This document shows positions 836 to 46,549 of a stretch of DNA of 64,000 bases, one piece after another. Below the pieces are notes generated by a model, which saw only the letters and a list, made by a program, of their open reading frames with translations, was not told the origin of the DNA and made no database searches. The DNA comes from Perca fluviatilis (taxonomy: Eukaryota > Chordata > Actinopteri > Perciformes > Percidae), in NCBI RefSeq assembly GCF_010015445.1, contig NC_053116.1, positions 29,598,285 to 29,662,284 of the forward strand. The letters are read 5' to 3'. Made by a program: the position numbers and the translations under genes. Within the stretch, counting starts at the first letter, position 1; each line of letters opens with the position of its first letter.

Positions 836-10588
<9,753 letters not shown>

Positions 10589-11736: not shown

Positions 11737-12398
11737 TCACAGTTCCTCTTTCATGTTATAAACGTAGCTGTTTGTGTCCTCTCTGAGCTCTTCTTCACAT
11801 TTGTTCCCACACACAGGAAGTTCATCATGAGGAGGGAATGGTGTCTTTGTCTCTGGAGATCCATCGACGGAGATCCCTGGCGACGACAGCGACATGATGA
11901 TCCTCGTCTTCTGCTGAGCCTTAGAGTGCTTTACGTCATCCGCAGCTTTCAAATGATGATGAAAAGTACATTTGCTCAGCTGGAGTTCAACCCGAGACCT
12001 GGGGTTCTTATTCCTTACAGTCTGCTTGCTGCTGCTGTGTAAATATGAAGGTCTCTGCAATGACGGAGAGCTTTGATGGAGAGGTGAGGCGGCGGTGGAG
12101 GTGGTGGGACACTGGCCAGACCTTGAACTACCCCTTCCTTCAACGCTCGCTGACACACTGACATTATCAGGGGTTGATGTGTGCACAATTTGGCCCTCTG
12201 TCCCTGACTTACATCTTCTTGGTTCTGTCTGTTTGGTGCCTTTTTGGTTCAATTCACCATTTGTGTTGCTCTTGCTGCAGGCCAGCACTGAATCAGGAGG
12301 GAAAACTCCATTGTAAAGCAGCACAAAGTCCCTCTGACTGGCCAAAGGAAGAATCTTCTGCTTGAGACGACACTTGTTGAAGATCTCCAGAGATAAAT
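11737..12398 (-). CDS. ttll10: ttll10 last exon: end of TTL core and long C-terminal tail
   Basis: The acceptor at GCTGTAG opens DLSLEIFNKCRLKQKILPLA then SQRDFVLLYNG, which closes the conserved core. About 190 further residues are low-complexity, Ser/Thr/Pro-rich with charged patches, and end NMKEEL-stop at 11739-11737. Confidence 0.92.
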
Positions 12399-15300
12399 CT
12401 ACAGCATGAAGAAGTGACAGCAGATAAAAACATGTTGGGTGGTATCACACATCAGCCTGTTGAGCAAACTAGTCAGTCAGTTGTCTTTTAAATAACTCGA
12501 AATCCATTCATCTGATATAGTTCACACTTGGCTAGTGTGGTTTCGACACGCAACACGGTCAGAATAATGAACTGAAACTTTTCTTTTTTTTTAGCGACTA
12601 TATTGACTGTGGATCACTTTTTGCTGCTACCAATGTTGCATGATTGCAGGATATACCAACCAAACTTTTCTTCACTTTCCAGGAGTCAACGAGCACGGGC
12701 GGATAGCCTACAGGAACAGCGAAGTCAAGCCACTAAGCCTGTTTGGAAATTAATAGCTCTGCTGAAGTGTTAAATTTGTTACGATAATAATGACCACCAA
12801 AACCCAGCCCTATTCCTATGTGAAATTAGTTTGACTAAAATGACAAAATTATTGGTACTGGTGGAGCTAGATTAACTGAAAGGTTCTATATAATAATTGT
12901 AGGGCCCATGCAAACAGCGCCTTGCTTTACTTTTCACTATTTCTTTAACTGGGAATGTTGGTATTGGCAGTGGTAGAAGAAGTACTCAAAAGTTTTTTTC
13001 TGAAGTAAAACTATTATTAGTAAAACTATCAATACTGCACAGTACAGGTCCTGCATTCAAATGTTTCTTCAAGTGAAAAGAGAGGCATTATATCAGCACA
13101 AATTTGCTAATTTACTTAACATCTGTTCAAGCTTTCAACTCTAACTAATATAATGCTGGATAGTTTAATGAATAATAATGCCTCTTATTTTAATTGTGTT
13201 ATTTTATATGTAAATATTGAATCTCCAACATTACTGTTGGTAAATGAAGTAGTATAATGTTTTCCTGTGAAGTAGAAGTACACAGTAAGTCAGTAGTATA
13301 CAGTTGTAAACAGTTGGGTTGCATATAAAGTGCTGTGAGGGCCTTCTGTAAGCTATTTTAGGGAACAATGGTTCTGGAGAATGTTGCAAGCAGAAATGCA
13401 GGAGGCCAAGCAATCTGCCAGTTCCAAACAGGCACATTTTAAACAGCACTGCACTAGTGTTTCATAAAGGGAACTATGATGCAGTGAAATTTAGTTAGTT
13501 AGTTACTTAATTAGTTTGAGCATGGTGTTAACTTTCCACTTTAAACATCTACTGAACCTGAAAAAGAAAAAGCAGTGATCAGCTGTGATAATGTGAGCTC
13601 ACCCAGTGCTTCCACAACAGTCCTGGGTATCACCTCCTTCAGCACTTCACAGTTGGTATGAAGAGCTGGATTACAGTTCATCTCCAACAGCCACACCTTA
13701 GGAGCACACAACGACATGGTTAGTCCAAAAACATGCACATTAACACACAAACACTGACTGCCACTCAGATACTAAGCGACGTCTAACCCACCTTGAAGTC
13801 CTCGTCAACCATGAAGTCGCAGCCAATCAAGTCAAAGAAGCCCAGTCGGCAGTCAAACTTGGATTTGACTGCTAAGAAACACTGCGTCAGGATCTGCTGC
13901 ATGTGCTTCTGATGCATGGAAAGGGAAAATAACCTGTTGGTCAAATTAGGCTTCTGAGTGATACACAATATAGCACATCCTCCAGCAGACATTTTGAATG
14001 TCTGCAGCTCTTAACAACTCTATTTGAGAACGTGTGGTTGCATTTCTTCGATGATTTATTTTTCTGCTCTTTTTAAATGACTTGATCGTTACTTTAGTCA
14101 TGATTGGCTTCGTGTTGAAACAATTTAGCTGCATTCATAGATTTTTGGTGGCAGCAGGACAACATTTAAAAAATATTTATGTTCATTTGTAAATTGGTGG
14201 CAAGCATGCACAGCTGACTTTAATTTTTAATGTTAGGTGGGTTCCTTTTACAAGCCCTTAAGTTTTTTTTTCATACCACCATTTTCTTATGTTATTGCAT
14301 ATTTAATTTTTTTCTTTTTCTTTTTATATGCAAAAATAAAGAACTAAAGAAAATATTTGTGATACAATAACAGGTTTGTTTTAAACCAAACACATTGTTG
14401 TTTTGTTTCACTATCACACACTGAAGGTTGGAGGTTTCAATCTAACAGGTCCAACCTGAAAAAGATAAAAATGTGTACATTGTGGCGTTTGTTGTACTAG
14501 AAACAGCACATGTGATATTTCATTTTAGTAATAACATGATGTATCCTCAAACCGGAATGAGGTCACCCAAGCCTAAACGCAATCTCAATTAGCTGCAAGC
14601 GCCAACAACCATCATTATAATGGTAATTGGTCCCAGAGAGCAACAACACACAGCAGCACTCACTGCAAAGGCGCCCAGCACCCAATCCCTGGGCAGACCC
14701 TTGGCAACCCGAAATCTGTCGTTGACGTAGGTGTTGAAGCTCTCCATGGACCACACAGTGTCCTCCTTTAGCTGGCTGTACAGAGGGTTCTTCTTCTGCA
14801 TATACTGGAGACAGACAGCAGGGGGACCAGAGACACATGAAGCAGTCAGCAGTAGCAGAGAGACAGTTAGTGGCACACAGCTAATGCTTGATCTATTCAA
14901 CCTCTCTGGAAGTAATGCAAATGTCTCTCTACTATTATCATAAATGGTTTTGCCATTTTTAATTTGTGTTAATTGGGAGTTCATGTGACAGCTTAAATAG
15001 TTAACATGAAATACTCTCCTGTGAAAGTCAAACCCAGAGTATAAAAATCTGTGATGAGCTGGTGAATGAATGCCTTTAAACTCCAAAAATGAACAGTGAT
15101 TTCAGTCCAGTTCCCAGTTCTTCTTTTTATTTAATGCAGGCATATTGGTAATTGACAGCGTTTGTTGATTGTTCAGTTTTTCAGTGCAAATAATTATCAC
15201 CCAGCAGCTGCAAAGAAGGGGGTAGCTTCCTAAGTTTGATTTGAAAGATATCTACTTGATTTGTGTAACTCAGACTGATGAAGTCTTGTATTAGCTTCAG

Positions 15301-18300
15301 GTACATGTTGCAGTACATTTATAGTATACATGTCAGTATATTTTTCCACAGCTTTCACATTGAACGCTCATTTGAAAGTGATCTTTTTAAGGCCATGTAT
15401 GAACAGTTTAGGAGGAGTGATAACAACAAGCAAAATGGGGTAAATGACTACTGTTTTAAAAGCAGACTTAAAAGTTTTGAACCAAGAAAACTTTGATCTG
15501 CCAGTTAACCCTGGGTATTTGGGCAGTCTGTATGGGGTGTGAGGTGTACCTGATTGGTCAGGTGGGCAGAGAGGTTGTTGGAGCTGGGGTCATAAAGGTC
15601 GCAGGTCAGTCGCACATAACCGTGGCGAAAGAAGACCATGTAAGGTGAAGTGCAAGCAATCAGAAGGTAAGAGCGCACATCAAACTTTTTCCCTCTCAGG
15701 AGCAGTGGACTCTGGATGTAACTGAGGGAAAAAAAAAAAAAGTCAGTTTACATTTGTCAATATGTGACAAAATGTATCATAATATTGATTTATCAATCCA
15801 ATTGTTAGGTATGTTCACCCACTGTTGGACAATGCGAGCCTGAGGCTGCCGGCGGTGCATCTTCCTGGCCTGACGGTCCTCCGTGTGCTTCAGCTTCAGT
15901 CTGAAGGCAGCTACGTCCTCCTGGCTCTTCAGCAGAAAGATCCCTCTGCCCTGGTTCAGACCCGTGGGCTTACAGATCCACATGTGACTCTCATTGTTGC
16001 TCACACCTGGTAACAGTCGTAAACTTACTGTACATCAGGTAAATCAACAAACGTATGACATATAAAGATAGATCTGTCCTGTTCTACTGTGTATTGTTTC
16101 TTTTGTTGCTTTCAGACCTACAGTATGTTAAGGCATTTCTTTCTGTTGTTATTCTGTTATATATTACCTTCTTTATTCTATGAATGCCAATGACTGCTGT
16201 GTCTGAAATCACTCCATATTTGCGGAAAGTACACCATGCATTTTCCACCATTTTATTTGAGTTTATGACGGCTAGTTACTTTGAATGTGAACATTCAGAT
16301 TATATAAATAGATCAGCCCATAAAATATGCTGCATTAAACTACCCAACAGTGTACAGTATAAAGTAGTTCAAAGTAACTTCAACTCAAGCACCTACAACA
16401 TTAAAATGCTGCTTACATGTTGATGCATCAGTAATAATAATCAAACAATTTAATGTAGCACTTTTACCAATCTTATTCTACTGTATAATAGGTACTTTTA
16501 CTTTTGCAGCTATACTTTCGAGTGTGGGATTGTACATGGGGTTTTCTCACTTTGAGGTGTTGCAGCTTTAACTAAGTCTTAATAATTATTCTCCTATTAT
16601 TGTGTTCTGATGTGCTCTCGTCTTCTTTTCCACGAATTCATCTGTCACCCAGAGATTTAACCAGCTGTCTGTGTCTCTCTCCTGTTTACTTTGTGATAAC
16701 CATGTTTGTCATAACGCGCACACGACTTATCATAATGCTGTGTGTCTGTATTACTACAAACAATACAGAAACCATGAGATTCTTTCATCTCCAGTCCTTA
16801 AAATTAATGTTTTTTAGGTGTAATATTAAAAGTATTTTATTTGTCTCAGCCCTGTCCTGTGCTGCAGCCGCTCTACATCCAGATCCTGTTGATTGTTTCT
16901 CCGTGTTTGTGTCTCAGCCCTGCCCTAAGACTCATCTCTATGGCAACAGCATGTTCCCCTGGTGATTTAATCAGGGCCTTATGGGAGGTGAAGTGCATTA
17001 TTTTCCAACATCCTCAACCTCTTGATTAAACAATCACTAAGGCAACTGTTGTCTTAACACTGCCAAGCACAAACTAGTGTCTTTCTTTTCATTATTGGAT
17101 GTATGACAGGTCAAGTTGGATTAATCTTATTTCAAACTGGAGTCTTCCTAATAAACACAAATCTAGTTGAACCAGTGTCATGTTGTTGCATGTAGGCCTA
17201 GTACTACTGTACTATAGGTAAATGTAGGTGCTTGGATATTTTACCCTCCTGCTGGGCAAAGAAAGCCTCCCTCTCTTCACTCACATCCATGCGGAAGGTA
17301 GTGGGAATAAACTCTTCCATTTTCAGCCTCCTGTGAAAAACAACACAACAAGGATGAAGCCCTAATGAATCTCTGTCTTCTCAGCTGTTTCAACTTGCCT
17401 GCATATTGAAAATCAAAACTCCCTGGGAAAGTTCCTTTAGATCACATTATGTTTAAATAACATGTCATGGAGAACCATACCTGTTTTTTTTAAATTAATC
17501 ATACTCTAAATTACTGGATTCTTACATCCAGTGTATCCCTGAGGCCTAACAAACATGTTTAGAGCATTTTTCATGTATTTTGAATACTACATTCTTTCCA
17601 TCCATGTTTGCTAGCTTGCGGTCTTCTTCTCTACCATTGCTGGGGCATTGCTACATTTTTATGGCACTTTACAGCCACCAGCTGTCAGTTCATGGAATAG
17701 TATGAAACCTTTAACAAGAACGTGTACCGATGTGAGCATGTACATATTTGCCCTATATGTGTGCATGACATCCACACATGCACCCACTTGTAAAAACATA
17801 GTACAATGAGTGGTACAGGCGGTTACTATTAGATTGTACTGTATGGTTAAATGGTTTGTCTGAACTTTGTACAACTTATTCCGTAAAAGGAATTCTTTGA
17901 TATTTAAGACTTATTTCTCTTTCACGTGTTGATTAAAAGAATCGGGTTTGTTAAACGTGTTTCACTGTATTCATTTACTATCAATAATTAACCACTGAAA
18001 TAGTTTATATAACTGACACACATCATGCTCAATTCAAGGCTTGCGAGATAGGAGGCCTGCTTTCTGATGATGCCATTTGGCTGTGTTTATTAAACAGTGT
18101 CGCAGTCTGATATGTCTTTCAATCAGTATTTGCAGAGCTGGGCCTCTATTGAACCTTCATGATGGCACCAAATTGTTGCCAGGAGGTTTGAGACACAAAA
18201 ATACATACATCGGTAAAGGAAAACACTAGCTGTCTGCTTTTAATACAAACTACCTCAATCCTCGACCGTGGTGGACTTTGCTGCTGACTCGCTCATATTC

Positions 18301-19635
18301 CCGCAGACTGCTGAGAAGGCCGATCTTAGTGGTGAGCACCTTGTTGTTGGGAATCTGGTACACTAACTGTTCACCTGGGAAAAACACATGATTTAAGTTT
18401 TCTTTGTGTGAATGGAAGGCAATACAACCTTTTCCTACTAAAAGCAAAATGAGAACAGAAATGAAACATTTATATTTTGAAATACATATTTCCAATTTTC
18501 CAATTTTCTATGTCATTTTCCTAGGACAGGTTACATTGTTATATGTTTTTACAGTTTATAGTAAGATACAGCATTCAGATTATGTCTTGTAAATGAATAT
18601 AGTATTGGACCTGCTCTGAAGTTACAGTAGTTGGCTGGTGATTTGGTCTCACACCACTTGAGTTTGAAATCCTCCCGCTGCTTATTGTAAATCCTCTTCC
18701 ATCCTCTGCTCTCACAGTAACCGCTCACTCTAAAGGAAAAGTCCCAAAGGAAATCAATCACACTTCTGCTTTAATCACATAAAAAATCCAGAGGTCAGGG
18801 GTCACATGTAATCCCTAATAAGGGGCCCATAACAGAATATACAGCAGGAGAATAATCTTTTCTACTAGGATGAAAGCAAATCTTTCCTTAGAAGTCATCA
18901 CTTTTCTTAAGCTTTTTATTTTAAAATTAAACAACTTCACTTACAATGTGATCAATTTTTTTTTAAATACCTACAATCCAACACATTATTGATACCCCTC
19001 ATGTCCTTTATTTCATATTTCTCTACTTACATTTCAGCCCCATTGGCTCCTCCAAAGAAGTAGAAAGGCCCAGGTCCCCGGGGCTCCTCTACCTGCCGCT
19101 GCCTGTTCCTATCTGGGCAGGAGCAGGTCGACAAGCCCCTGGGGGCGGACTTTCGGAGGAATTGCTCCACCAGGCCCGCACCTGCTAATTTTACATACAC
19201 ACAGAAATCATACAAGCACACTGTCACATAAGCTCTGTCACATGCATGTAAATTGTTTTGATTAACTGTATTTTGTTATGCTGCAATAAAGGATAAACAT
19301 ACTGGAAAAAAATAACATTTGACATCCCACTTTCCCCTCCACACACCTGACCCTCTATCCTGGCTTTCCTGCTTGACAGTCAAGTGGGGAAACCTGTCTC
19401 TCTTTTTCTGTGTCTCCACCCTCTGGACCTGCTCCAGTCCACCTTCTGATGTCACTTCCCGCATGCCACTATGGTCAGGTGATGAAGGCTGTTCTCCTGG
19501 CTCCTCCTGCCTCAGTTTTCCTACAGGCTGGTTGTCCACACAGGGAACCTCCACTTCCTTCTTCACCACTTCTGCCCCTTGTTGCTCCTCTGCCTGGCCT
19601 TCACTGTAGGACTCCACCCAGAACTCAGATGACAT
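11737..19635 (-). CDS. ttll10: Tubulin tyrosine ligase-like protein 10 (protein polyglycylase)
   Basis: Eleven exons join in frame at GT/AG sites: 19635-19347, 19184-19031, 18729-18611, 18374-18254, 17330-17245, 16006-15823, 15721-15550, 14804-14664, 13908-13792, 13696-13603 and 12398-11737. The result is 712 residues; human TTLL10 has 673. The TTL/ATP-grasp core begins near residue 140 (FYFFGGANGA). It includes the ATP-binding lysine in WICKP (K269), LNQGRGIFLL, KFDVRSYLLIACT (330-342), and the metal-binding set D453, E466 and N468 in GCDFMVD and LLEMNCNP, with the D-E spacing of 13 seen in TTL. Residues about 520-712 are a Ser/Thr-rich tail without a visible domain. The family adds or elongates glycine side chains on tubulin and other proteins, notably in cilia. 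Human TTLL10 is reported inactive; nothing in this copy looks disabled. The first in-frame ATG after the exon's acceptor is used as start, but exon(s) upstream may be coding. Confidence 0.93.
13603..13696 (-). CDS. ttll10: ttll10 exon: catalytic Glu and Asn
   Basis: It encodes VWLLEMNCNPALHTNCEVLK then EVIPRTVVEAL. E466 and N468 complete the metal site. The segment is almost identical to the human protein. Confidence 0.94.
13792..13908 (-). CDS. ttll10: ttll10 exon: catalytic Asp
   Basis: It encodes KHMQQILTQCFLAVKSKFDC then RLGFFDLIGCDFMVDEDFK. The aspartate in GCDFMVD (residue 453) is the first metal ligand of the ATP-grasp site. Confidence 0.94.
14664..14804 (-). CDS. ttll10: ttll10 exon: KEDTVWSMESFNTY
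   Basis: A phase 0-0 exon of 47 codons (YMQKKNPLYSQLKEDTVWSM then ESFNTYVND). It matches FMQKKSPLYMLLKEHTVWSM in human TTLL10. Donor GTGAGT. Confidence 0.93.
15550..15721 (-). CDS. ttll10: ttll10 exon: KFDVRSYLL motif
   Basis: It encodes YIQSPLLLRGKKFDVRSYLL, then IACTSPYMVFFRHGYVRL and DLYDPSSNN. This is the central-domain signature of TTL enzymes. Acceptor TCCCTCAG, donor GTACAC. Confidence 0.94.
15823..16006 (-). CDS. ttll10: ttll10 exon: ATP-binding WICKP
   Basis: It encodes NNESHMWICKPTGLNQGRGI then FLLKSQEDVAAF. The lysine of WICKP is the family's ATP-contacting residue and the glycine-rich stretch follows. The exon ends QARIVQ plus two bases of a histidine codon at donor GTGGGT. Confidence 0.94.
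17245..17330 (-). CDS. ttll10: ttll10 exon: MEEFIPTTFRMD
   Basis: An 86-nt exon encoding RLKMEEFIPTTFRMDVSEER then EAFFAQQE. It matches MEEFFPETYRLDLKHEREAF in the human protein. Acceptor TTTTCACAG, donor GTAAAA. Confidence 0.92.
17540..17790. repeat. Diverged interspersed repeat (sister of 63135-63340)
   Basis: It shares GAGGCCTAACAAAC, GGTCTTCTTCTCTACCATTGC and CATGGAATAGT, in the same order, with the right end of the window. It lies in the ttll10 intron between the exons at 18254 and 17330. Confidence 0.55.
18254..18374 (-). CDS. ttll10: ttll10 exon: PNNK..TTKIGLL motif
   Basis: It encodes EQLVYQIPNNKVLTTKIGLL then SSLREYERVSSK. PNNK.LTTKIGLL is a signature of TTLL10 and its polyglycylase relatives. 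Acceptor TTCCCAG, donor GTAGTT. Confidence 0.93.
18611..18729 (-). CDS. ttll10: ttll10 exon: N-domain segment
   Basis: It encodes VSGYCESRGWKRIYNKQRED then FKLKWCETKSPANYCNFRA. The human counterpart is SSYCKSKGWQRIHDSRRDDY with TLKWCEVKS. Acceptor CTTTAG, donor GTCCAA. Confidence 0.92.
19031..19184 (-). CDS. ttll10: ttll10 exon: entry to the TTL domain
   Basis: It encodes GAGLVEQFLRKSAPRG and ends PFYFFGGANGAE, which matches PFFYIGGTNGAS of human TTLL10. Phase 1 in, phase 2 out, donor GTAAGT. Confidence 0.9.
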
Positions 19636-28899: not shown

Positions 28900-31330
28900 A
28901 TGGAATTGCTAAATTGAGAATTTAAAAAACCATAAGACAGATTTCATGGGGCTCTGCATGAAGTCAATGCAGACATAGGTCATATGTGCCCCCGGGCGGA
29001 GCGGCGATATAGAAACCCATCTAAAACTGCTGCAAAAGAACCGTAAAACAGTAAGATCATACTTCACGTAGGTGGTAATGGTGTAAATCGGAATCACTAA
29101 AATGAATGTTGAGTACTTTGTGCATACGCAAAGACAATGTCGGACTCAGTAGTTTTGACCCCTGCCAAACCTGACCAATGATGAAATGTACAGCCGTCGT
29201 CTTCCACGCTGGTTGTCGGGTGGTGCCCAGCTAATGATGTGGGCTATGTGAATAATGGAGGGGTCTGGGAAAGCCTGGTGATTGAGAGAGACGGCATTCA
29301 TCCCACCTGGGACGGTGAGCCTCATATCAAAAATCTGAACGAGTTTATCAGACATAAACCATGACAACCCAAGTTTGATATTAGTAATAGAGGTGCAGTG
29401 CTAGCCCTGTGCTTCCGTAGGAGCAGGCCACTCATGGTCTAATAAGCACGGTGTCTGTCCCGCTCAGATCGGTTAAATAAAGGTAAAAAAAATGCGCTAT
29501 ACTTAACAACCTAATTGGATTAAAATACTGCAATAGAACAAAATAGGAAAATAGATGTGGACTATTAAATATTAGAGTCAAAGCAGTATGGTAAACGAGT
29601 TGATATAGACAATAAAATTGATTTATTTTGTTTACTACTGCTGGGCCATGAAGACTATGAGTTAAATGAGCCACTCCCAGCCATATTATACTCAAACTAG
29701 AGGAAGAGGGGAGTTGCAATCTTGTGCAAGCCGCTAATTACTCTAAACCTAAATAATTATAACTCATTTGAAAGTGTTAATAACATAAAATGAAAAATAC
29801 ACAATTATATTGTTGTTATTTACAGGCCCAGGATTCTGAATTTTATCTGAATTCCAGAGTTTTATCATGTTTAGCCTTAAATCAACCAAGTATTTGTAGG
29901 TGATTTTAATATCCATGTGGACGTTGACAATGACAGCTAGTACTGTTTCAACTCATTACGGTTCAATCGTGTAGAGTAAGCGACTGTTTTAACCACACGA
30001 CCTTGTGCTATATGGTATTGAAATGAGGTTAATAATATTGCAGAATTGGTATTATCATTTTTAATACTAATTTTACTACCTTTATATTAAATAATAACCA
30101 ACCACTTATACAGTTATAGAATAAAAAATCAAATAGTTTTAAATAACATTATGTTAACACTCAAATTGATGATTGTAGAGTATTAAATGCACGTATGATC
30201 CTTTTGCACTGTCGGTGCTGCCAGTGTCATGGGCTGCATGTAAAAAATTTTTAACATAGACGCTCTATTTCTTAGTTCAGTATAGTGCTCATTGGTTACT
30301 TACTATTGTCGGACTTGTGTCCCACTGCCTGGGTTTACTATGATCTCCCCTTTCTATCAGATTTGGAAGGGGTTGTAATAGTATGTTTTCTACATACGTT
30401 TTTTGTCATCATACCACTGTTTACTAATTTAACTTGAAAGTTTGTTCCATTCTTGTATAGTGTGTTTTACATTGCCCTTACACGATTATTGCCTGTGGTG
30501 GTATCTCTTTTGTGTTTTAGGGCCGGTCTCCCGCGTTGTATAATGAAGAAGACAGTGAGGTTGGTGTACCTAGCAGATAGGCTTCAGTTATCTCTCAGAC
30601 CAGCGATCTGGGTCGGGGCAGAAACTGTCACCTCATTCAAGATCTTAACTCTCCTATTTGTAATAGTAGGAGTGAGAGTTGCGTGTTCACCTACTCCACT
30701 GCTTCTCTTCATAATTGTTAGATTAATATACATACAAAGTAGGACAGGCCAGCCAAGCCAGATCCAGGGAGAGTTCTAAGCCCAAAAGCTACCTCTCCTT
30801 ATGACCTGTCTCTCTTAGTTACCTGTTATAGTTTGTTATAGTCCTAGACTGCCGGGGGACTTCCTTCCTTTGACACACTGAGCTGCTCTCTCCCCCTTTC
30901 TATTACTGTTTCTATTACTGTTACTAACTATACATTTGTGTGCAGCCCGTCCAGAATGCTTGTTACTATCCTAGTTCTGGGAGTTTATCCGTTTATGCTT
31001 TTTCCAGCGTATTTCCTTGGGGAACGCACAAGACCTGTTTGCAGCTGTCGCGTCTGCTGCATTCTGCTGAGCTCAGGGCCCTAATGTCATGCTGCGTTGT
31101 ACCCTGCAGCTTCCCTAATCCAGTACTGTTCATTATTAATGTGATACTATGCCACTGTTATCACACCCCAACCCTGTAGACACCTACCAAGGCCTGGGTG
31201 GCGAGTTTCTTCCAGGAGTTTTCTCGCCACTGTCGCACTGCTTGCTCTTGGGGATTACTGGAATGGGTGTGTTTGTATTATAGGTGTCTCTCTATGTAAA
31301 GTTCGAATTAAGTTAAAGCTAACTGGAGAT
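28900..31330 (+). pseudogene. Decayed L2/CR1-type LINE, plus strand, with its reverse transcriptase deleted
   Basis: In order: an SGNH/esterase-like remnant (HVGGN near 29068; LPNLTNDEMYSRRLPRWLS and IERDGIHPTWDG at 29165-29320), an endonuclease scrap (VGDFNIHVDVDND near 29900), then the C-terminal PAIWVGAETVTSFKILTLLF at 30600-30660. A 3' region at 31190-31260 (GCCACTGTCGCACTGCTTGC) matches that of the LINE at 59493-61762. Frames are broken many times. The 700 bp between endonuclease and C-terminus is too short for a reverse transcriptase. Confidence 0.7.
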
Positions 31331-35394: not shown

Positions 35395-35466
35395 TAATGG
35401 ACGGCATTACCAGACAGTATTAGACACCAATAATTACATCTAACCATGTCTGGTAAGACGCCTATC
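35395..35466 (-). ncRNA. mir429: miR-429 hairpin
   Basis: The mature 3p product occupies 35422-35401 (22 nt, seed AAUACUG) and is identical to the vertebrate miR-429 sequence I know. The 5p arm at 35460-35439 (CGUCUUACCAGACAU...) pairs with it across a 16-nt loop. It shares its seed with miR-200b but ends in GCCGU, which separates the two. It lies 1.27 kb downstream of miR-200a. Confidence 0.97.
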
Positions 35467-36723
35467 AACAGGCTGGAAAGATGACCTCTGAGCTTTCACC
35501 TGTGCAAAAGAGGAAGAAGAGAGATGGAGGGAACAGAGCAGTGTAGCAGAAACAGGTTGAAATGAGCAGTTCCTCTTTTGTTGCGGCCGCAGATTCTATA
35601 CACGCTACACATTCACTTCTTTGTACATTTTAATTGGCCAAGCATGCAGAGCAAGAATAAAGCCACAAGTGAACACACCAAGGCATGAAGCAAATTCTTT
35701 CTGTTCCAGTCTTCTACATTAATACACAAATATGCAATGGCAACACAAAGAAAAGGGACAACCGGAGGGGGGGGAAGCTATTTCATGTTTCTGTGACTTC
35801 AATAATGGAGCTGGGTGGCCAAATAAAGGTGCGGCTCAATATTTGCGGGGTAATTCTCCCTCCTTAAACAAACACTAGGTCTCTGCTCGCTCCATGTCTA
35901 TTATTTGCTTGTTTCTAAGGTCTGTTTGAAGGCTTTGCCTATTAATTTTAGCCCAGACATGGATGAAAATCGTTTGTCTTCAGTTCAGTAATATTTAATC
36001 TCCTCTGTTTCAAATCAATGCCGCAAGAAATCTGTGTACGTTTTTACATTCTAGCATGCCTAACACACTACCTAAAGTCATTTTTTGTTGTAGAGACTCC
36101 TGTCTACTTAAAGCACTTTTGTGGCGAAAAGCTTGGGAAGCTGGGAGGAGGCCACCACGTCTGTAGCTCAAGGTTTTTTTTTTACCAGTAAAGCACTCTC
36201 AGGTGAGCTCATGTGTCAGTTTCAGGATGTGCCACGCAGGTAAGGCTAGTCGGACCAACCCGCCACACAACACAAAGACCAACGCTGTTCAGGGGAGGGA
36301 ACAGGGAAATAAGGCCCTGCAGGACCGGTGGAACCATCAACCGACTGCTATTCTTTATCTTGGGTGGGGTGGGGTTGCTATAAAAGTTTTTTTTTTAAAC
36401 AGGGAAGTAAGTAAAGAATTCAAAAACAGGACCATTTACTGCATAAAAGATCAGCTCTTTCTTGTTTCTACTTCAACAATCTCAAGCTGTTTCAGTCATA
36501 AATATTCATGTATTTTAATACCAACTATGTCCTGTCTGTCAACACTGTGCATCATCTATGACCTTATTTGCTACCCCAGAATACAGAGACAATCCTGCTT
36601 ATAAGGATTACCATTCAATGGCAACATCTAAGGATTCTTACAGATTTAAATTCACTTAAGTTATTCACTTATTTCACATTATTTTGGATTAAACATTTGA
36701 GCACCGGAGACCACAGAGTCACC

Positions 36724-36796
36724 CAGGAAACATCGTTACCAGACAGTGTTAGAACAACAGTTGTACAATCCAGCACTGTAAGGTAAGATGGATCCT
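36724..36796 (-). ncRNA. mir200a: miR-200a hairpin
   Basis: The mature 3p product occupies 36751-36730 (22 nt, seed AACACUG) and is identical to vertebrate miR-200a. The 5p arm is at 36790-36769 (CAUCUUACC...GUGCUGGA) with a 17-nt loop. The seed differs by one base from miR-200b/429, so it belongs to the miR-141/200a target class. Confidence 0.97.
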
Positions 36797-36807
36797 GAGA
36801 GCCATTT

Positions 36808-36809
<2 letters not shown>

Positions 36810-36854
<45 letters not shown>
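36810..36854. repeat. (GCT)15 trinucleotide repeat between miR-200a and miR-200b
   Basis: Fifteen perfect units on the plus strand, read as (AGC)15 in the pri-miRNA. It lies 20 nt upstream of the miR-200a 5p arm in transcript direction and about 90 nt downstream of the miR-200b 3p product. It is not in a supported coding frame. Confidence 0.97.
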
Positions 36855-36855
<1 letters not shown>

Positions 36856-36937
36856 AAGTATTTGAGCCGATCCAGGGCCCTGGCCAGGAGCACGTTGCTG
36901 CTAACGTTGCTAAAGCGGTTTTTCTGGTTGCAGATGA

Positions 36938-37008
36938 CTATCATCATCATTACCAGGCAGTATTAGAGAAAGTGATGATATCCAATGCTGCCTCGTAAGA
37001 TGGAGATA
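36938..37008 (-). ncRNA. mir200b: miR-200b hairpin
   Basis: The mature 3p product occupies 36965-36944 (22 nt, seed AAUACUG) and is identical to vertebrate miR-200b. The 5p arm is at 37002-36981 (CAUCUUACGAGGCAGCAUUG...) with a 15-nt loop. It is the first hairpin of the cluster in the direction of transcription. Confidence 0.97.
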
Positions 37009-37009
37009 A

Positions 37010-40000
37010 TCACCCAAACATCTCATTACTAAACTGATGGAACAGATTGGGATAACTTTGGTTGTAGAATATAATGTGTGAGTTCCAGTTATTAAATGTT
37101 AATGAATGAATGACATCTACTGAAGCAGATTTGGGAGTGAGTAGTAAACCTAACCATAAATACCTTTGAAAGAAAGGGGAACTCAACCTTAAATGATTAG
37201 GGTATATGGGTACGTAAGAGTGAAATAAGTAAGTATGCCATAAACTAAGCCATGTATAGCCTAAAAATAGCATTGTAAATAGGCGTTGGGAAGTCTATAT
37301 TTGGAGACCCCCTCTCTATAATATAATTGCTGAGCCCTTGTTGTGGTTTTTAGCTTAAACTCGCTGTCACAGAAGACTGGGCCACAGTAGTTGTTAATGA
37401 TTGCCCAAACCTGTTACAACTAGTCTAAATCTATGGCACGGCAAAGTTGGGAGGCCTGCTTTTCACACAATGCATGGCAGTTACTAATTTCAAACGCCGT
37501 ACGTCATGCACCTTCACTTAAAATTGTCACCAAGTCAAAAGCACGTCAGCCTCAGGGAGCTGTTTCTGTTCAACATCATATCCCGCCAGAAGAGTAATAG
37601 TGTTTTTACGTTGCAACATACTGTTCTGTCTCTCTAATAAAACAGTGTTGTCAAGTCGGTTTCAACTGATGTTTTATGGAATGGAAAAAAGGAAAAGCCA
37701 ATTTTTCTTTTTCTTTTCTGTTTTGCATTGGTGGAGATCTTAGGCCGTTGTCTTTCTGTTTGCTGAATGATGAAAGGCTGATGGAATGCTGCTCAGCTCG
37801 ACCTGAGCCGACGCTGTGTATGCAGAAGGTCACTGAAACAGCCCTCGTTTGCTGAATATCGTGGATCATTCACAGGTACACCGCGTGAAATCCTCACACC
37901 CCATACTACGGACATTTTAATCTCTAAATTAAACATTAAATAAATTTCTTATTATCTAGTTATTCTAAAAAGTCACTGTACTTTATATCTTGTCACATTA
38001 GATATAGAATATACTTCATCAAATGACGTGTAGGTTAACTACGGAAAGTTCCCCTTTTCTTTCAACAAAGATTTGATTGTTCAACACATTTAGAATCAGC
38101 CCTCTCTTTTACAAAGTGACTACATTTCTCTCGGAACAAAAGCCCAAATAAAGAGATGAGACATTATTGTGTTCATTAAGAAAGAACAGGTTTCCAGTCA
38201 TCCTGTAAGCAATGCAAAAGTAGAGCACACGAGAGAGAGAGAGAGAGAGAGAGAGGGGGAGGGAGAGGGAAAGAAAAGTGAGTATAAGGGAGGGAAAAGT
38301 TCAGGGAAAGAAGGTGAAGGAAAATGGAGAATGCACCTGTAACCTTACCGTCATGAAAGGTACCCCCAAGGAAAGAATGTAACAAAACCAAAGTAAAGTG
38401 AGTACGTTTGGAGGGAGGGGGCTGAAAAAAAGAAAGAGAAAAAAGATCTTGAATTTCCACCCCGCTGCCTGAGAACGCTTCGTCTTCCTCCCGGTCAGTC
38501 AGGCCCCATGAAATGAGAAAGCCAAGCAGACCTGCTCTCCCAGATTCTATTTAGTTAATCATCAGCATTATAAACCAGTGCTGCAGGCCCTCTGAGGAAG
38601 AAAAGAGGGAGAGAGAGAAAGAAAGAGTGAAAAAAAAGATTAGCCCAGAAAATTCTAGCTGGTAGAAACAAGTTGTGAAAATAACAGTACCTGAACAAAG
38701 TAGAGCATGTTACCTTTCGAAATATCTAACCAACCCCTACGTCCAACAAACTTGGTCTCAATTTGTCCTCCATTTGTCCAAATACTTCTTCTTCTGTTCC
38801 CTCGTGGTTCAAAACGACCGAACTTTTCCCATTGTTGTACATAGTGCTCGGTGCAGTGTGGGAGTCTCAACCGCTTACGGCTGCCCACGCTTTTTGCCTG
38901 TTGGAAGTGAGGCGTGATCAGGTAACTCTGCCCTCTGTGCTGGAATGTGACTCCACTGTGAAGTCAACAACCCCATAGGTAAACTGGCCTGGCCCTTAAT
39001 CAATAGTTGCTGTCTTTGTGAGAAAACAATGGCAGGGAAACCCAAAACCATATTTAACTCCAGACCTTATCTTAACGGCACCTAATTGGGCCTTGAGACA
39101 ACTGAGGGGCAGCCTGGTAACTGGGATATTTAGGCCATGATACTGCTTATCATCCATGTGCCACTGCAGTACTTCTAAATGTATACTTAGTGATTTACAT
39201 TAGTAGTTGATGTTAGAGCAAGTAGCTCCTCCCCCTTGCTCAGTGTCCTTTCACCTTTCTGTTTTGAATATTTCAAATGAAGCACTAACATATTCAACTA
39301 ATTTGATTATTGAAAGGGATTTGGACATTTACTTTCCTTCTTAATGCCTTTTACATATTTTAATTCAAGCTACCTATCCACCCCTCCTCATCACGGACAG
39401 GTTCCTTTTGCATTCTATCAAAAGTAAAATCTGTCAGAAATGAATAATTAAATTAATAATCCCCCTGGAGGCACAAATTGTAACATTACGTCTTTTGAAG
39501 TTGATTCAATGTTGCCAAAAAGAGGAAATTATTGTTTTAAATGGTAAACTGTAAGATGGAAACATCTTGAATCATATTATTATCATCATGGCTTCTTAAT
39601 TAAAAGGGTATAGCATAGCACTGACTTTTTAAAATGGCCCTGGCCCATAATGCAGTGTCATTTACCCTTTTAGATGAATCAAACCGCAGCTATAACTTAA
39701 CCTCTCACCCCACGAGGTGATAAGGCCTACACTCTCTTTTAATTTCAAACCTATGACTCAAACACGAACAAACAACATCAAAATCAGTCCACCATTTCGT
39801 CTGGTCTCCCAATCATTAAATCTGGCTTTCTGTTGAAATTCTACTCTGCACTTCCCGCCCTGCTGCCATACGTTGGCAGTGTGACCAGCCCTCATGTGAC
39901 TTGCAGCTATTCAGGTGTATGAAAGAAATGAACAAATGTTGCTCTTTCCACCAATCACAATCTTCCACCTCGCTCTGCAGTCGCCACTGTGCAGTACATG

Positions 40001-40899
40001 GTCGACATTTTCCCTCCATTTTCCCTTCTCCTTCCCAGACTGCAACAGTCCTCGGCTGCTCAAAAAGACCTTATGAGCAGCCTAGAAGACTTAATAATGT
40101 ATACCTTCTATCTCGTGGAAATGATCTGCTCTGATAAGTCCAATGCTGCTGTCTGTCTGAACTTAACCCAACCTCAGAGGCAGGGAAAACGGACGAGCAG
40201 ACATTTTACGTCCGACACACATCCACTTCATAACAGACTCTTTTTTTCATTTCAAAAGCGCATGACATAGGCGTTATTCTATCAAATCTCTACCTTAAAA
40301 AGCCAACGAAAGGAAAGCAGTAAGAAGTAAACCGTAGAAACCAAAACTCTAGAGAATATATCCAAAGACTAACCGACAGTTTGTGGAAAAAAGTTGCCAA
40401 ATGAGTTCTGAATTAACACTTAACAATAATGTTAAACTTATCAGGTATTACTATTTGATTATTAATAGGTAAAGCGGTTTCATACCATGGATGTTTCCTT
40501 GTGAAGCAGATTTTAAAGCTCTAAAAAAAGGAGTCAGACTCCGTCCTCATATCCTTTGACAAGTCTGGCAGTTTGCCTTTACCTGCCCCAACTGGTCTAT
40601 CCAGTTTAGGAATGAGCGTTGGCTTCTATTGTTTCCTCTTCTTTCTCCCCGGTTAAAAGGAGCTGGAATTCGATACACATTATTTTCGCTTCCCATCGAA
40701 ACTAGCTAGACCCTCCTATATCAGCACACAATCGCAGAGGGCTACATACGCTGACCTAATTTTCTGATCTTAGTCGATGAACAAATGTCCGTAAAGTTTT
40801 AACTCTGTTGACGCTGAGCAACAGGTTATGACGACAGCTCGAGTCTTAAAGATGGAGAATGAAGACAAAGAAGGGAACACATTAGTGCATTTACCCAGT
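37010..40899. other. Region between miR-200b and its candidate promoter
   Basis: No supported gene. It holds a (GA)n tract at 38229-38254 and AT-rich stretches around 39240-39620 with the even composition of conserved non-coding DNA, but conservation cannot be judged from one sequence. Confidence 0.4.
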
Positions 40900-41830
40900 C
40901 GTTTCCCAGGTGTGGTCATCGAGCCAGAAACCCAAGACAAGAGGCATCATTGTATAAGAGCTCTTGACGCCCCGTTGGCTAGTCTTCCTCTTTCCTGCTC
41001 CTGCTGAAGGACAGTCGACCTCTGGAGTGGCGGGTAGGAAGAAAAAAAAAAAAGCCGTCCCTTTTCAGGTAGATGCAACCGTAGAGTCGGAGGAAGAGCC
41101 AAACCCCGGAACAAAACCAACCAGTTTTAAGCGCGCCAGCTCTCTTCCTGCTGCCCGAGCAGAACTTGTTTTTTTCCAGGTGCTCTCGTCTGCGGTGTTA
41201 GGCGGTTAAGCTTCTCAAGAAGACAGAGGCTGAATTTGTAAAGGGCTTGGTTTACATGTAGTCTGACCCCCCCCCGCCCTCCTCCCCTTTCCCCCACAGG
41301 TGTAATTTTCAGGTCGCAGCCAATCTCCTTAGCCTCTTGCGCCCACAGGTGTGTCCCCCGCGTCTTTAGCCAATGGTGGTTCAGACGAAACTCCCCCCCC
41401 CCCACAACCCCTCCTACCCTCTGACTCCCACCTCACCGGTTCGCTCACCTCCGCCCTCCCCATGAGCCCCCAGGTACCTTGTTGTGTGTTTTTTTATGAT
41501 GTCAGCTCAGGCTTCTGTGGGAACAATCTCCTCTGTTCCTATTACAACACAGACAACAGGTAAAGAACCATCATCCTCAACTGCCGGACACACCTATCCT
41601 GTCCAAGCAGAGAAAATATATCATCAGGCCGACACACTGCGAGGGACAGGTATTCAAAACATGTATCTGTGAGGTATTATCATATGCAAAAAACCATTGC
41701 CTACTTCTTAGCTGTATAACTCCCCCATAACCTGAAATACCTGCCCTTTGCTCCACACGCCTCTTTTGTCCTAACAATAACCCAGCTGAGTTACAGCGAG
41801 AGCAACAGGTGAACAAAGTGCAGGTGAGTA
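40900..41830 (-). promoter_or_regulatory. Candidate E-box-rich promoter/enhancer of the miR-200 cluster
   Basis: CAGGTG or CAGGTA E-boxes occur at 40907, 41066, 41177, 41297, 41346, 41471, 41806 and 41821, and TACCTG at 41738. The stretch around 41.2-41.5 kb is GC-rich. ZEB1/ZEB2 and SNAIL bind this E-box type and repress the human cluster from a promoter about 4 kb upstream of miR-200b, the same distance as here. Confidence 0.55.
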
Positions 41831-41899
41831 AAACTTGAGTAAGACACACCCGCAGTTTGAGTCGTGGGAGATGGGGGAGCAGTGACAAGGGGGCTGGTG

Positions 41900-44800
41900 G
41901 GGCCCCTGGCCCCCAGGGGCAAACAGGGGCCTAATCCAAAACCTGGACAGGGTTTGGCTGGAAGCTGGGCAAGGCAGACACTTTCGGTCTTGAGGTGTAA
42001 TTGTCGGGATTAGTCTCTCAACAATGAGCACAATGGCAGAGCCATATCCTGTTTCAGCAGGGGCGTGGCACAGGTTGCTGCAGAACTACGTTAACAAAGA
42101 TGGAAGAAGGCGATTGTTTGAATCTTTAAGTTAAACAAACCGTAGCAGTCTGTGAAATACTGACCCAAACTACAATAAAATCGCTCATTATCCACCAATC
42201 AAACACCTTTACCTTTCGATTCCAAGATAGTTATTACAATAAAGCTCTATGTTGAGCCTCAGTTCTGTACTGTGGATAATGAGTTGATTATGAAAAAAGC
42301 AGAAAAATAGTGATAGAAAGTCTGTGCATAAGCATTAAATGTTTTTTTGTAGTCTTTCACCATGTCAATTCTGAGTGAAGCTCAGTCTCTTCAAAGGGAG
42401 CAGTTAGTGAATTGCTCTGCTCTGAAAGGTTTGCTTTGTTCAGGCTCTTCATTTGCATACCAAATGAGGTTTGGAGTGAAGGCAGGGGCCTGACCTGAAC
42501 TTATTTGGGTACTGATGGCTATCTGGCCAGCCGGTCACGCAAGTCAGGATGTGAGGACATCCCTCAGCAGCATTGACTCAACAGCCTCAACAAACACAAA
42601 CACTCAGAGGCAAATACTGCTGCGTGGACATATTCAAACTCCCACCTGCTAAAACGTCTTGGTTTCTCCGAGGCCCTTTTATGAAAAAATCAAGTAAGAA
42701 CACTCTAGAATAAGGAGGTGTTATGTAGGTTTACAAAGATTATTTGTGTGCACAATTTTAGAATTTGTTGTCTCAAAATAAGAATTCTTGCTCTGGATTT
42801 CGCATAATGTATCACCTTCATGTCATTATGCTTGTCTTGCCTTCACACACTGACTTTACTGTGAATTGCTTGGATTTAATGCCATTTTATTTAAAGTTGT
42901 TTGAGATCCAAACAAACATTTTACAGGAAAACGGATTATTTCTCAGTAAAAACGTTGATACTGGGAATGACATCCAGTTCGTTAAAACTCTTGAGGAGCG
43001 TTTTATGAATGTCGTCTTTGTTGTTTCCAGCTTCTGGCTGATTGAATTTCCCCTTATCGAGTCAAGAACACAAATTATGTGTGAAGAAATCACTTTTTTC
43101 TCCAGTATACCTCACAGCATCCATAAAAATAAGCAAAAAATTTGTTTTTTCTACGTTATGAAGACACCCATTTTCTGTCCCAGTATGCAAATTGGCCTGT
43201 GATTTATGATGGACACTGTAATCCTGAATGGGTCTGTGTACTGGATGTACCTACAGTATCAGACATTCTGGGGATCAAAAGATGAGATGAGAGAAAGCTG
43301 GGACAAGCAAAACCTTGCTCACTGTAAAACAAGCCACCGAACAACAAGGTTTATAGTTGTCTTTACAGTAACCTGACAGCGGTCGTGTGGATCCAAGTCT
43401 GGATAAATGCCACAGCTTGTCAACTGAGAAAAAGGAAAACAATGACTCATGTTTGTTTCATCTTTCCCCGTGTGCTGTTGCAGAACATTTCCATGTAGCC
43501 CTTCACTAATCTGCATTCAGTATCCAAGGTGACTAGTAACGCTGGATATGTATCTCCCCTCAGGCCTCTAACTGAAGCCATAGCCTTTATGGTGCATTGC
43601 CAACTGAGAATCACAATACACACAAGAAGTGACCCTGAAGGGCATAGTAAGTCTTCTTAAAATAAAACCAAGAGTCTAAGTGAGTGCTGTTTGCTCATTA
43701 AGTATATCGAACAACTATGAATTAATCATTTAACTTAACTAACATAGTCAGACAAATCAGTCGGTGCTTTCAAAAAAAGCATAACAGAGCCAAATAATCT
43801 GTCCACAGTTATGAGTACCAAAACATTGTCATTTAAGTGAGTACAAGTGATTGACAGTGTGATGGATTCTTCATTTCCTGCACAGTATAGAGTTTTTGAT
43901 CAGTAAAAATGTTCTTTAGTGAGTAACAAGTCTCTGTAAGTTCATTTTCGCTTAACTAAATTGAGAGAAGGTGCAACAGTGAAAGAAGGAAACTCGTTCA
44001 AGTTGTAAATATGTAAAACACTGTGGTATTATTTGGAAAATTGGTTGGTAGTGATGTAAAGCATCTAGTACTTGAATTGTGATAACTAGGCTAAGATACA
44101 AGATAAATTCAAGTAAATTGTTCCGTTACTTAAAAACCTGCTGTGCAATTGCATATTGCAACATTGTAATGTACCATATTCTTGTGATAGCTCAGAACAA
44201 ACTGGATCATGTGAATTTAGCTGGGCTGATGACCTGGGCTGTCGTCAAGACCACTAACCAATAGAGTCCAAGACAAGTCCAAGTCTGAACACTCGGACCC
44301 ACAAGTCAGAGACAAGTCAGAGATAACAAGAAAAAATGACTCAAGCCCGAGACTTATCTGGAGTAATACGGTACAGCCCTGCTGCTGGGCATGTATGACC
44401 CATATCGTTCAACTTCTACCTCTTTGGTGTAGTATCTTGATCTACAACTGTGCAGAGAGACTAGGTTTAAACAGAATGAATAGACAAATAAAAAAGCTGC
44501 GCAGTATTCGAGGTTGATTTAGTAATGCAGTGATTCGTATGCAGAAAGATTCAAATGGATTACGCTTATAAAAAAAAGGAAATGTATAATATAATGGATA
44601 ACTAACAGCACTTTGATGCGAGGCTGTGTGCGGATACTTTGCTTTGCGTTTCTTGTAGTAAATAGACACCTTGTACTGTAAACCAGACAGCCTATGAAAC
44701 TGATCTGAACAATATCCTGTGTGTTATAACATATTCATTAGTAAAGAATACTGAACAACAATATATCCACACTCTCTGAATGGTCATAGACACAACGTAA

Positions 44801-46549
44801 AGCCATCAATAGCTGCTGTTCTCATAGGTTTTCCCAAATTAGAGGCCTTATCACACCATATGCAGCATCTGTCCGTTAAGTCTTTTCTGTTGTTTTATCC
44901 ACCTGTCTCCTCGGTCTGCCCTGCTGCTCAGGTGACTATGGGATAATTACAGAGATTGACATTGTCTTAGAGGAAATTGGAGGACTTAGCCCAGGTGTGA
45001 TGTTTAAAGGACCCTCATTACATTGATCAGCACTCAACCACTGATTTCTACCAAGTCTCTCGCCAATTAGCTCCCTGTCCGCCTCGGCAGCAAAGCCCCC
45101 CCGCCACCTTATAAAGAAAATATAGAATACATAACTCTTTCAGGTGTTTGACTTTTTCTACAGTACAATATTTAACATGTATTAATATGTATGTTAATAT
45201 GATTAATATGATAATAATTAATAAAATAATAATAATAAAATAATTAATATATGATTAATAATAATATGTTAATATTAATATGTATGTATGTTAAACTTTT
45301 ATCTTTGCCTGGTTGAGGAGAAACAAGCCTCATGTCTTCTCACAAAGCCAGAGAATCACCAAGGGAGCAGCGTGCACACAAGCAGTCTAGCAGCCACAGC
45401 CGTGCTCTGACTTGCGGCCTGCCACCAGCAGCGGGTAATTGGCCCCAAAGGATTTAGGGCGGGATGGTGCGTGTGGATGGCGCGGTCGTATCCCATAATC
45501 TCCAATGGGGCAGTTTCCACAGAGAAGTGGAGCGAGGCATACCAATTATTACTGCATCTTATTCCACAACACACCTGTTTGGCTCATCTGCCGCTTCAGA
45601 AACAAACTGTGATCCGTCTGACATCAGTGACAAGCAAAGTGGAGTAATATACAGAATCTATATAGGAAATGTATGTAATGAAATACATTCATATGCATCT
45701 ATTTAGCATGAGAAAAATGCATGTTTGTATGGAAAGTATCACCACGAACGATCATATCAGACATTATATCAAAACATTCACTGTTAACATTACCTAATTA
45801 ATTCCCCAAAAAATGTTAATGGATTTAAATGAGAGCATGTTTACTTATCTGAAGATTAGTAACTAAAACTACTTGGTTAATGTTAAGGAAAGACGTTGGT
45901 CATTCAGTAGTTAAATAAGAAAATATCATCACTGACAAGTCTTAGACAGGATTTGATTCAGGATGCTGGTGTTGAAAGTAAACACTTATCCACCACCCAG
46001 ACCTCCACACACTGCTGTGACAGTACACTACTTTGACGTTGCTGTTAAATGTAACACTTTTTTACTCTTTAAAAGGAAAAAAAAAATCTATTCAAGCCAT
46101 ATTTTCTGAAAGTAAAGTCAATTTTACTCATACTCCATCCACCTGTTTCTACCAGCAAAAAACAACCAACCAATGGACTAACCCATTTCAATCTATATAA
46201 TCTTGTTTTGATGTATTAGCTCCGCGTGATGTTAATGAGATGGGTTTCAGCATGTACTGTAAGTGGGTGGTGGGGAGGTCGCCATTGTAATTATTCTTTT
46301 TGTATCTTTTTGTTTCTGTATGCTTACGTGTTTACATATTGCTATGTTTATTTAAAAAGAAACTGAGAAAAACAAAATAGTGGAAACACTGACAGTTGAC
46401 GGTTTTATCATAATAAACACAATGACCGAGATGCACTGCTGCTGTCACTGTAAGTATTAAATATATGAGGCAAATCTTCTAAAAGTTTTTGTTGATTAAA
46501 TTCAATGACTCTGAATGGATTCCTGTCTGTCTTAAACCTACGTGTGCAG

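Follow-up and report, generated by a model that had tools for sequence, protein, structure and literature searches.

Background

The DNA analysed in this work, a stretch of 64 kb from the perch Perca fluviatilis (C5:29598285-29662284, hereafter the window), carries on its minus strand three short sequences that resemble mature microRNAs of the miR-200 family. The locus raises the questions of whether these sequences belong to the miR-200b/200a/429 cluster known from other vertebrates, how much of their surroundings is shared between fish and human, and from which promoter such a cluster would be transcribed in perch.

In the human MIR200B gene, GRHL2 is reported to bind 3859 bp upstream of the hairpin and 368 bp downstream of the transcription start site, which therefore places the human start site approximately 4.2 kb upstream (PMC4757891). 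The human cluster is repressed by ZEB1/2, with ZEB-type E-boxes described upstream of the start site (PMC8656820), and by Snail2, which acts via E-boxes in a reporter of the -321/+120 promoter (PMC3480416); an enhancer of the human cluster has been placed 5.1 kb upstream of the start site (PMC3783398). In mouse, Ttll10 is called the miR-200 host gene, (PMC5356520), an arrangement that would put the promoter elsewhere. In zebrafish, overexpression of zeb1b lowers miR-200b, miR-200 sites are present in the 3' UTRs of zeb1a and zeb1b, and putative Zeb boxes are reported in the spacers of the cluster and in the first kilobase upstream of it; the Zeb/miR-200 feedback loop is described there as having just a minor impact on gastrulation (PMC3696638).

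Results and discussion

Three miR-200 hairpins on the minus strand

When the 64-kb window was scanned with Rfam, three precursors of the family RF00241 (mir-8/mir-141/mir-200, curated cut-off 47 bits) were found on the minus strand with E-values of 3e-13 to 9e-12: the mir-200b precursor at 36940..37007 (68.4 bits), the mir-200a precursor at 36726..36795 (63.3 bits), and the mir-429 precursor at 35397..35465 (64.5 bits). Nothing besides these three scored above the Rfam cut-off in the whole 64 kb. The 22-nt mature sequences that a preliminary description of this DNA had located on the minus strand were recovered exactly, i.e., TAATACTGCCTGGTAATGATGA at 36965-36944 (200b), TAACACTGTCTGGTAACGATGT at 36751-36730 (200a), and TAATACTGTCTGGTAATGCCGT at 35422-35401 (429). 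The mature sequences of 200b and 429 start with TAATACTG and that of 200a with TAACACTG, and the family seeds AAUACUG and AACACUG are present at mature positions 2-8.

RNA folding, which had been suggested as a check on the hairpins, gave a single stem-loop in each case, whose 3' arm carries the mature strand, at -33.0 kcal/mol (z -6.6) for mir-200b, -34.3 kcal/mol (z -6.7) for mir-200a, and -25.8 kcal/mol (z -4.1) for mir-429; in each case 0 of 200 shuffled sequences were as stable. The hairpin signal from Rfam and folding together is far beyond chance. No fourth hairpin of the cluster was detected by Rfam between 34 and 43 kb, even at the loose threshold of E<=0.5, at which eight matches were obtained in this interval. 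Six of them were the three hairpins and their antisense shadows; the other two, a weaker hit of RF04301 to 200a and one of a viral pseudoknot family that stayed below threshold, were rejected. It is highly improbable that the cluster consists of pseudogenes or decayed copies and is no longer processed, given that the mature sequences are intact, that all three precursors lie well over the Rfam cut-off with strong folds, and that the cluster is the sole miR-200 locus detected by pattern searches of the genome (described below).

Comparison with the zebrafish and human genes

The locus is the ordinary vertebrate miR-200b/200a/429 cluster, which has already been described in zebrafish. The zebrafish cluster on chromosome 23 likewise consists of three hairpins in the order 200b-200a-429 (PMC3696638, PMC4623745), with mature sequences near-identical to those of perch and the same two seed classes in both species. 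Compared with the zebrafish sequences deduced from published morpholinos, the perch miR-429 is identical at 22 of 22 positions and miR-200b at 22 of 23, and the mature 200a differs from zebrafish miR-141 at the last base only (PMC3696638). The spacers differ in length: between the Rfam ends, 144 nt separate 200b from 200a and 1260 nt separate 200a from 429 in perch, as against 49 bp and 1569 bp, respectively, in zebrafish (PMC3696638). In its 3' half the perch miR-429 is of the fish type and differs from the human sequence. The miR-200c/141 cluster of human and zebrafish belongs to the same family and has the same seeds, and it is found at a different locus with different flanks.

The 144-nt spacer between 200b and 200a contains an (AGC)15 microsatellite at 36809..36854 on the minus strand (15.3 copies, 100% matches), which lies 13 nt from the Rfam boundary of 200a and is likely to vary in length between individuals. 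In a joint minimum-energy fold both miRNA hairpins are kept, and the weak CAG stem that forms between the two is unpaired in the centroid structure; a strong repeat hairpin disrupting the 200b and 200a hairpins, considered as a candidate, does not appear in this fold.

ttll10 and the neighbouring genes

The preliminary description had also placed ttll10 after the cluster on the same strand, and coding exons of such a gene were indeed found at 12307..18369 on the minus strand. Pfam TTL matches were above the cut-off in the exons at 15505-15747 and 15777-16034, and a third match, at 13541-13771, was just under it; none was found in the other seven of the ten open reading frames (ORFs) sent to Pfam. 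With a fragment of human TTLL10 as the query, an alignment was obtained to eight colinear blocks running from 18369 to 12307 on a single strand with 50-84% identity (E<=3e-5), and six more rows were at chance level (E>=0.75). Further exons are likely to be present on both sides of the recognised blocks. In a protein search, one of the exons gave 28 relatives in pieces of 72-137 aa that covered 48-91% of the query; no solved TTLL10 structure was among the 21 PDB matches. Membership in the TTL family does not depend on this human reference. The name ttll10 probably holds as well, judged from the 50-84% identity of the eight blocks to the human protein.

In human 1p36.33 the order is MIR200B-MIR200A-MIR429-TTLL10 on one strand, and the perch cluster has the same order and the same strand relative to TTLL10. 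The preliminary description had gone on to propose a block conserved from fish to human. The hairpin identity, order, strand, and ttll10 linkage are borne out; the term conserved block is probably too wide. Codon usage was scored in the window and in 60 kb on each side of it, and ten of several dozen exon-like pieces were submitted to Pfam, two of which had no match. In the upstream flank (+87 to +121 kb in window coordinates, minus strand), RING, ankyrin, and ZZ pieces were found together with a MIB/HERC2-type piece whose closest solved structure is MIB1 (E 3.7e-30), and the upstream gene is therefore regarded as a mind-bomb type E3 ligase. On the plus strand beyond ttll10 are a RhoGEF piece, with ARHGEF16 in 3 of 3 PDB matches and hence ARHGEF16-like, and an anoctamin exon piece identified by Pfam. 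The human cluster is flanked by C1orf159/AGRN and TNFRSF18/TNFRSF4, and none of these was among the genes identified from the ten pieces within 60 kb of the window. The identified neighbours are thus unlike the human ones, and what can be claimed as a fish-human block is the cluster and ttll10, while a wider block is probably absent. Wider synteny is not necessary for orthology of the cluster. Judged by titles and abstracts, no report of a linkage between miR-200b/miR-429 and TTLL10 in fish was recognised in the literature searched, and no novelty is claimed for it.

Repeated and mobile elements were also observed in the window. A reverse transcriptase domain (RVT_1, E 8e-33) at 61129-61761 on the minus strand probably belongs to a retrotransposon of the non-LTR class; no convincing Pfam match was obtained for another open piece, at 60376-60966. 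Approximately 1.8 kb at 1946-3706 is occupied by AT-rich, interrupted, satellite-like repeats with units of about 25, 35, and 61 bases and a strong strand asymmetry.

A conserved non-coding segment upstream of the cluster

Upstream of the 200b hairpin, an 83-aa open stretch on the plus strand (40958-41209) gave eight candidates in the protein search, of which seven were relatives with 49-87% identity. A control ORF of the same length at 48212-48463, one of three further plus-strand 83-aa ORFs (the others being 30928-31179 and 38666-38917), gave 0 candidates and remained below the minimum number of shared words with any protein. Aligned back to the window, the seven relatives spanned 40777-41238, and six of the seven matched in two plus-strand frames, in both of which the window has stops. 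The two-frame matches and the stops argue for conservation of the segment at the DNA level rather than the protein level, and the ORF at 40958-41209 was therefore rejected as a protein exon. The seven relatives have the look of conserved non-coding DNA read through by gene callers, and they may come from close species.

The conserved element (40777..41238, taken on the minus strand) is located 3.77-4.23 kb upstream of the 200b hairpin, a distance that agrees with those of the GRHL2 peak and the start site of the human cluster (PMC4757891), and we predict it to be the promoter or start region of the perch cluster. The human start region is a CpG island, whereas the perch segment is just GC-richer: at 41001-41500 the GC content is 0.55 and the CpG observed/expected ratio is 0.58, which is not convincing for a CpG island at the predicted promoter.

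A run of CAGGTR boxes and a candidate Grainyhead-type site

The hexamers CAGGTG and CAGGTA were chosen after the ZEB boxes of the human promoter, and the run described here was seen and tested before the human distance was consulted. Thirteen CAGGTR boxes (ZEB/Snail-type E/Z-boxes) are clustered at 40442..41826, counted on both strands and 3.4-4.8 kb upstream of the 200b hairpin, in what is predicted to be a repressor-binding array that overlies the 83-aa open stretch. With 13 boxes in 1.4 kb starting at 40442, this is the densest CAGGTR run in 284 kb; no other separate stretch within the 184-kb context exceeds 6 boxes, and the best one in 100 kb of C7 has 5. At 40401-41900, 0 of 2000 dinucleotide shuffles reached 13 boxes (mean 1.67, highest 7), and with 13 copies against 2.4 expected CAGGTR came first by Poisson p among the one-degenerate hexamer classes with at least 5 copies (6144 possible), although these tests flatter the run because the tested stretch was selected by the run itself. 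Among single hexamers in the run, CAGGTA, which accounts for most of the excess, was first (7 copies against 0.8 expected) and CAGGTG thirteenth (6 against 1.7). A comparison of the 60 permutations of CAGGT plus R over 184 kb is fairer than the shuffles, and less clean: the best stretches held 14 copies of TGCAGR, 13 of CAGGTR, and 11 of GGTCAR, so that 1 of the 59 other letter-permutations does as well as CAGGTR, and the GGTCAR stretch contains a tandem repeat while the TGCAGR stretch does not.

Three boxes could be followed in the relatives of the conserved segment through the encoded residues Q-V, which permit CAGGTR without proving it. Q-V is present at box 40907 in all 6 relatives that cover the position and at box 41066 in 6 of 7, the seventh (P0035) being compatible in another frame; at box 41177 it is found in 0 of 7, with Q-E in five, H-E in one, and one unreadable in that frame.

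CAGGTR is also the core of a splice donor. It is therefore possible, though we consider it the less probable view, that the run is a chance or compositional cluster, or a set of sites that resemble splice donors and belong to an unannotated transcript from the plus strand, and that it lies near the promoter by coincidence. Eleven of the 13 copies share one orientation, on the plus strand, and an antisense transcript across 40442-41826 is possible; in addition, one permuted motif is equally dense elsewhere, CAGGTG by itself is only mildly enriched, and one of the three boxes with readable conservation (41177) is lost in the relatives. Against this view, CAGGTR heads the one-degenerate hexamer classes by Poisson p (in a stretch chosen by the run), no shuffle of 2000 rose above 7 boxes, the other two readable boxes (40907 and 41066) are consistent with conservation, and nowhere in the segment is a reading frame conserved.

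A candidate Grainyhead-like (GRHL) site, AACTGGTT, is located at 41119..41126 on the minus strand, approximately 4.1 kb upstream of 200b, and is the only match to AACYGGTT in 36901-46000.

Predicted promoter and regulation of the cluster

Our main reading, to which we assign a probability of roughly 0.7, is that this is the vertebrate miR-200b/200a/429 cluster upstream of ttll10, expressed as one predicted transcript from a promoter approximately 4 kb upstream and likely repressed by ZEB/Snail factors outside epithelia. The observed anatomy comprises the hairpins with their order and strand, ttll10, the conserved segment (40777-41238), and the densely packed CAGGTR boxes of 40442-41826, and from it we infer every regulatory step that follows for perch. 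All three hairpins would be carried by a single primary transcript, which would begin in the conserved segment and extend for about 6 kb. In epithelia it would be activated by Grainyhead-type factors bound to AACTGGTT at 41126-41119; outside epithelia, ZEB/Snail factors would occupy the CAGGTR boxes and silence it. Processing by Drosha and Dicer would yield two seed classes, AAUACUG (200b and 429) and AACACUG (200a), both of which would in turn repress zeb mRNAs and close a double-negative ZEB/miR-200 switch such as that reported for human and zebrafish cells. In this circuit the conserved segment and the boxes would serve as the promoter and the ZEB arm.

The preliminary description had read shared regulatory constraint out of the proposed conserved block. 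Linkage by itself is no proof of shared regulation; the conserved, ZEB-box-rich non-coding segment approximately 4 kb upstream, which that description did not mention, is a better pointer to it. The predicted regulatory segment of perch, with its ZEB-type boxes and a candidate Grainyhead-type site, lies approximately 4 kb upstream of the cluster, as does the human one (human data from PMC4757891 and PMC8656820). The zebrafish boxes, on the other hand, were placed within 1 kb upstream or in the spacers, compared with the perch run at 4 kb, and the zebrafish in-silico analysis, which took 1 kb upstream of the stem-loop, would have missed a segment at 4 kb (PMC3696638).

We consider it unlikely that the cluster is instead an intronic passenger of a distal 5' promoter of ttll10, the 4-kb segment then being an enhancer or unrelated conserved DNA. 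Such an arrangement would fit ttll10 lying downstream on the same strand, the naming of Ttll10 as host gene in mouse (PMC5356520), and the human enhancer upstream of the start site (PMC3783398). The first recognised ttll10 block, however, starts at 18.4 kb and is separated from miR-429 by about 17 kb (5' exons were possibly missed), and the segment is as far upstream as the GRHL2 peak and the start site that the human cluster has of its own (PMC4757891).

Search for miR-200 loci elsewhere in the genome

The perch assembly (951 Mb, 297 contigs) was searched for further members of the family. The 16-base core TAAYACTGYCKGGTAA had five exact matches in the genome, of which three are the cluster, and a backwards control pattern had one. 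The remaining core matches, at C7:32.52 Mb and C14:7.41 Mb, were rejected when Rfam made no mir-8 call in the 3-kb loci around them. With one mismatch allowed over 21 bases, five sites were obtained, i.e., the cluster's three and isolated sites on C14 and C20, that on C14 being covered by the Rfam scan. A genome-wide search with RF00241, in which 65 of 108577 first-look candidates were scored, gave at least three places.

Zebrafish is reported to have a second cluster, 200c/141/429b, on chromosome 6 (PMC4623745), and no counterpart of it was detected in the 951-Mb perch assembly when one mismatch to the mature sequence was allowed. The zebrafish miR-141, as derived from its morpholino, would match the search pattern. 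So, too, would zebrafish miR-200c and miR-429b. The human 200c/141 cluster lies near EMG1, and no mir-8 hairpin was found near perch emg1 at C7:23.70-23.80 Mb; this region is uninformative on loss because neither phb2 nor ptpn6 was recognised by eye in its exon list. Three copies of snoU85 (RF01296) were observed near emg1 within about 4.3 kb, at C7:23.764-23.769 Mb. Either the 200c/141 cluster has been lost in the lineage, or it has diverged by at least two mature bases, or it is missing from the assembly. No report of a loss of the 200c/141 cluster was recognised in the literature searched.

A more far-reaching proposal, which we regard as quite improbable, is that 200c/141 was lost and the whole miR-200 system runs from one locus, whose promoter would have been fixed at 4 kb since the common ancestor of fish and human and would have grown to 13 ZEB/Snail boxes that form a single steep epithelial switch, with the (AGC)15 repeat as a length-variable tuner of 200b/200a processing.

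Conclusions

What is new here is the record of a well-known cluster in perch, together with a candidate promoter segment and a hint of a single miR-200 locus. In the perch genome this central regulator of epithelia has retained its order and its linkage to ttll10. For the fish miR-200 cluster, the segment at 40777-41238 offers a specific and testable candidate promoter, located at the human distance and equipped with the motifs required for a ZEB switch. Should the single-cluster state be true, one deletion would remove all miR-200 activity in perch, which would make it a cleaner animal for this purpose than either zebrafish or mouse.
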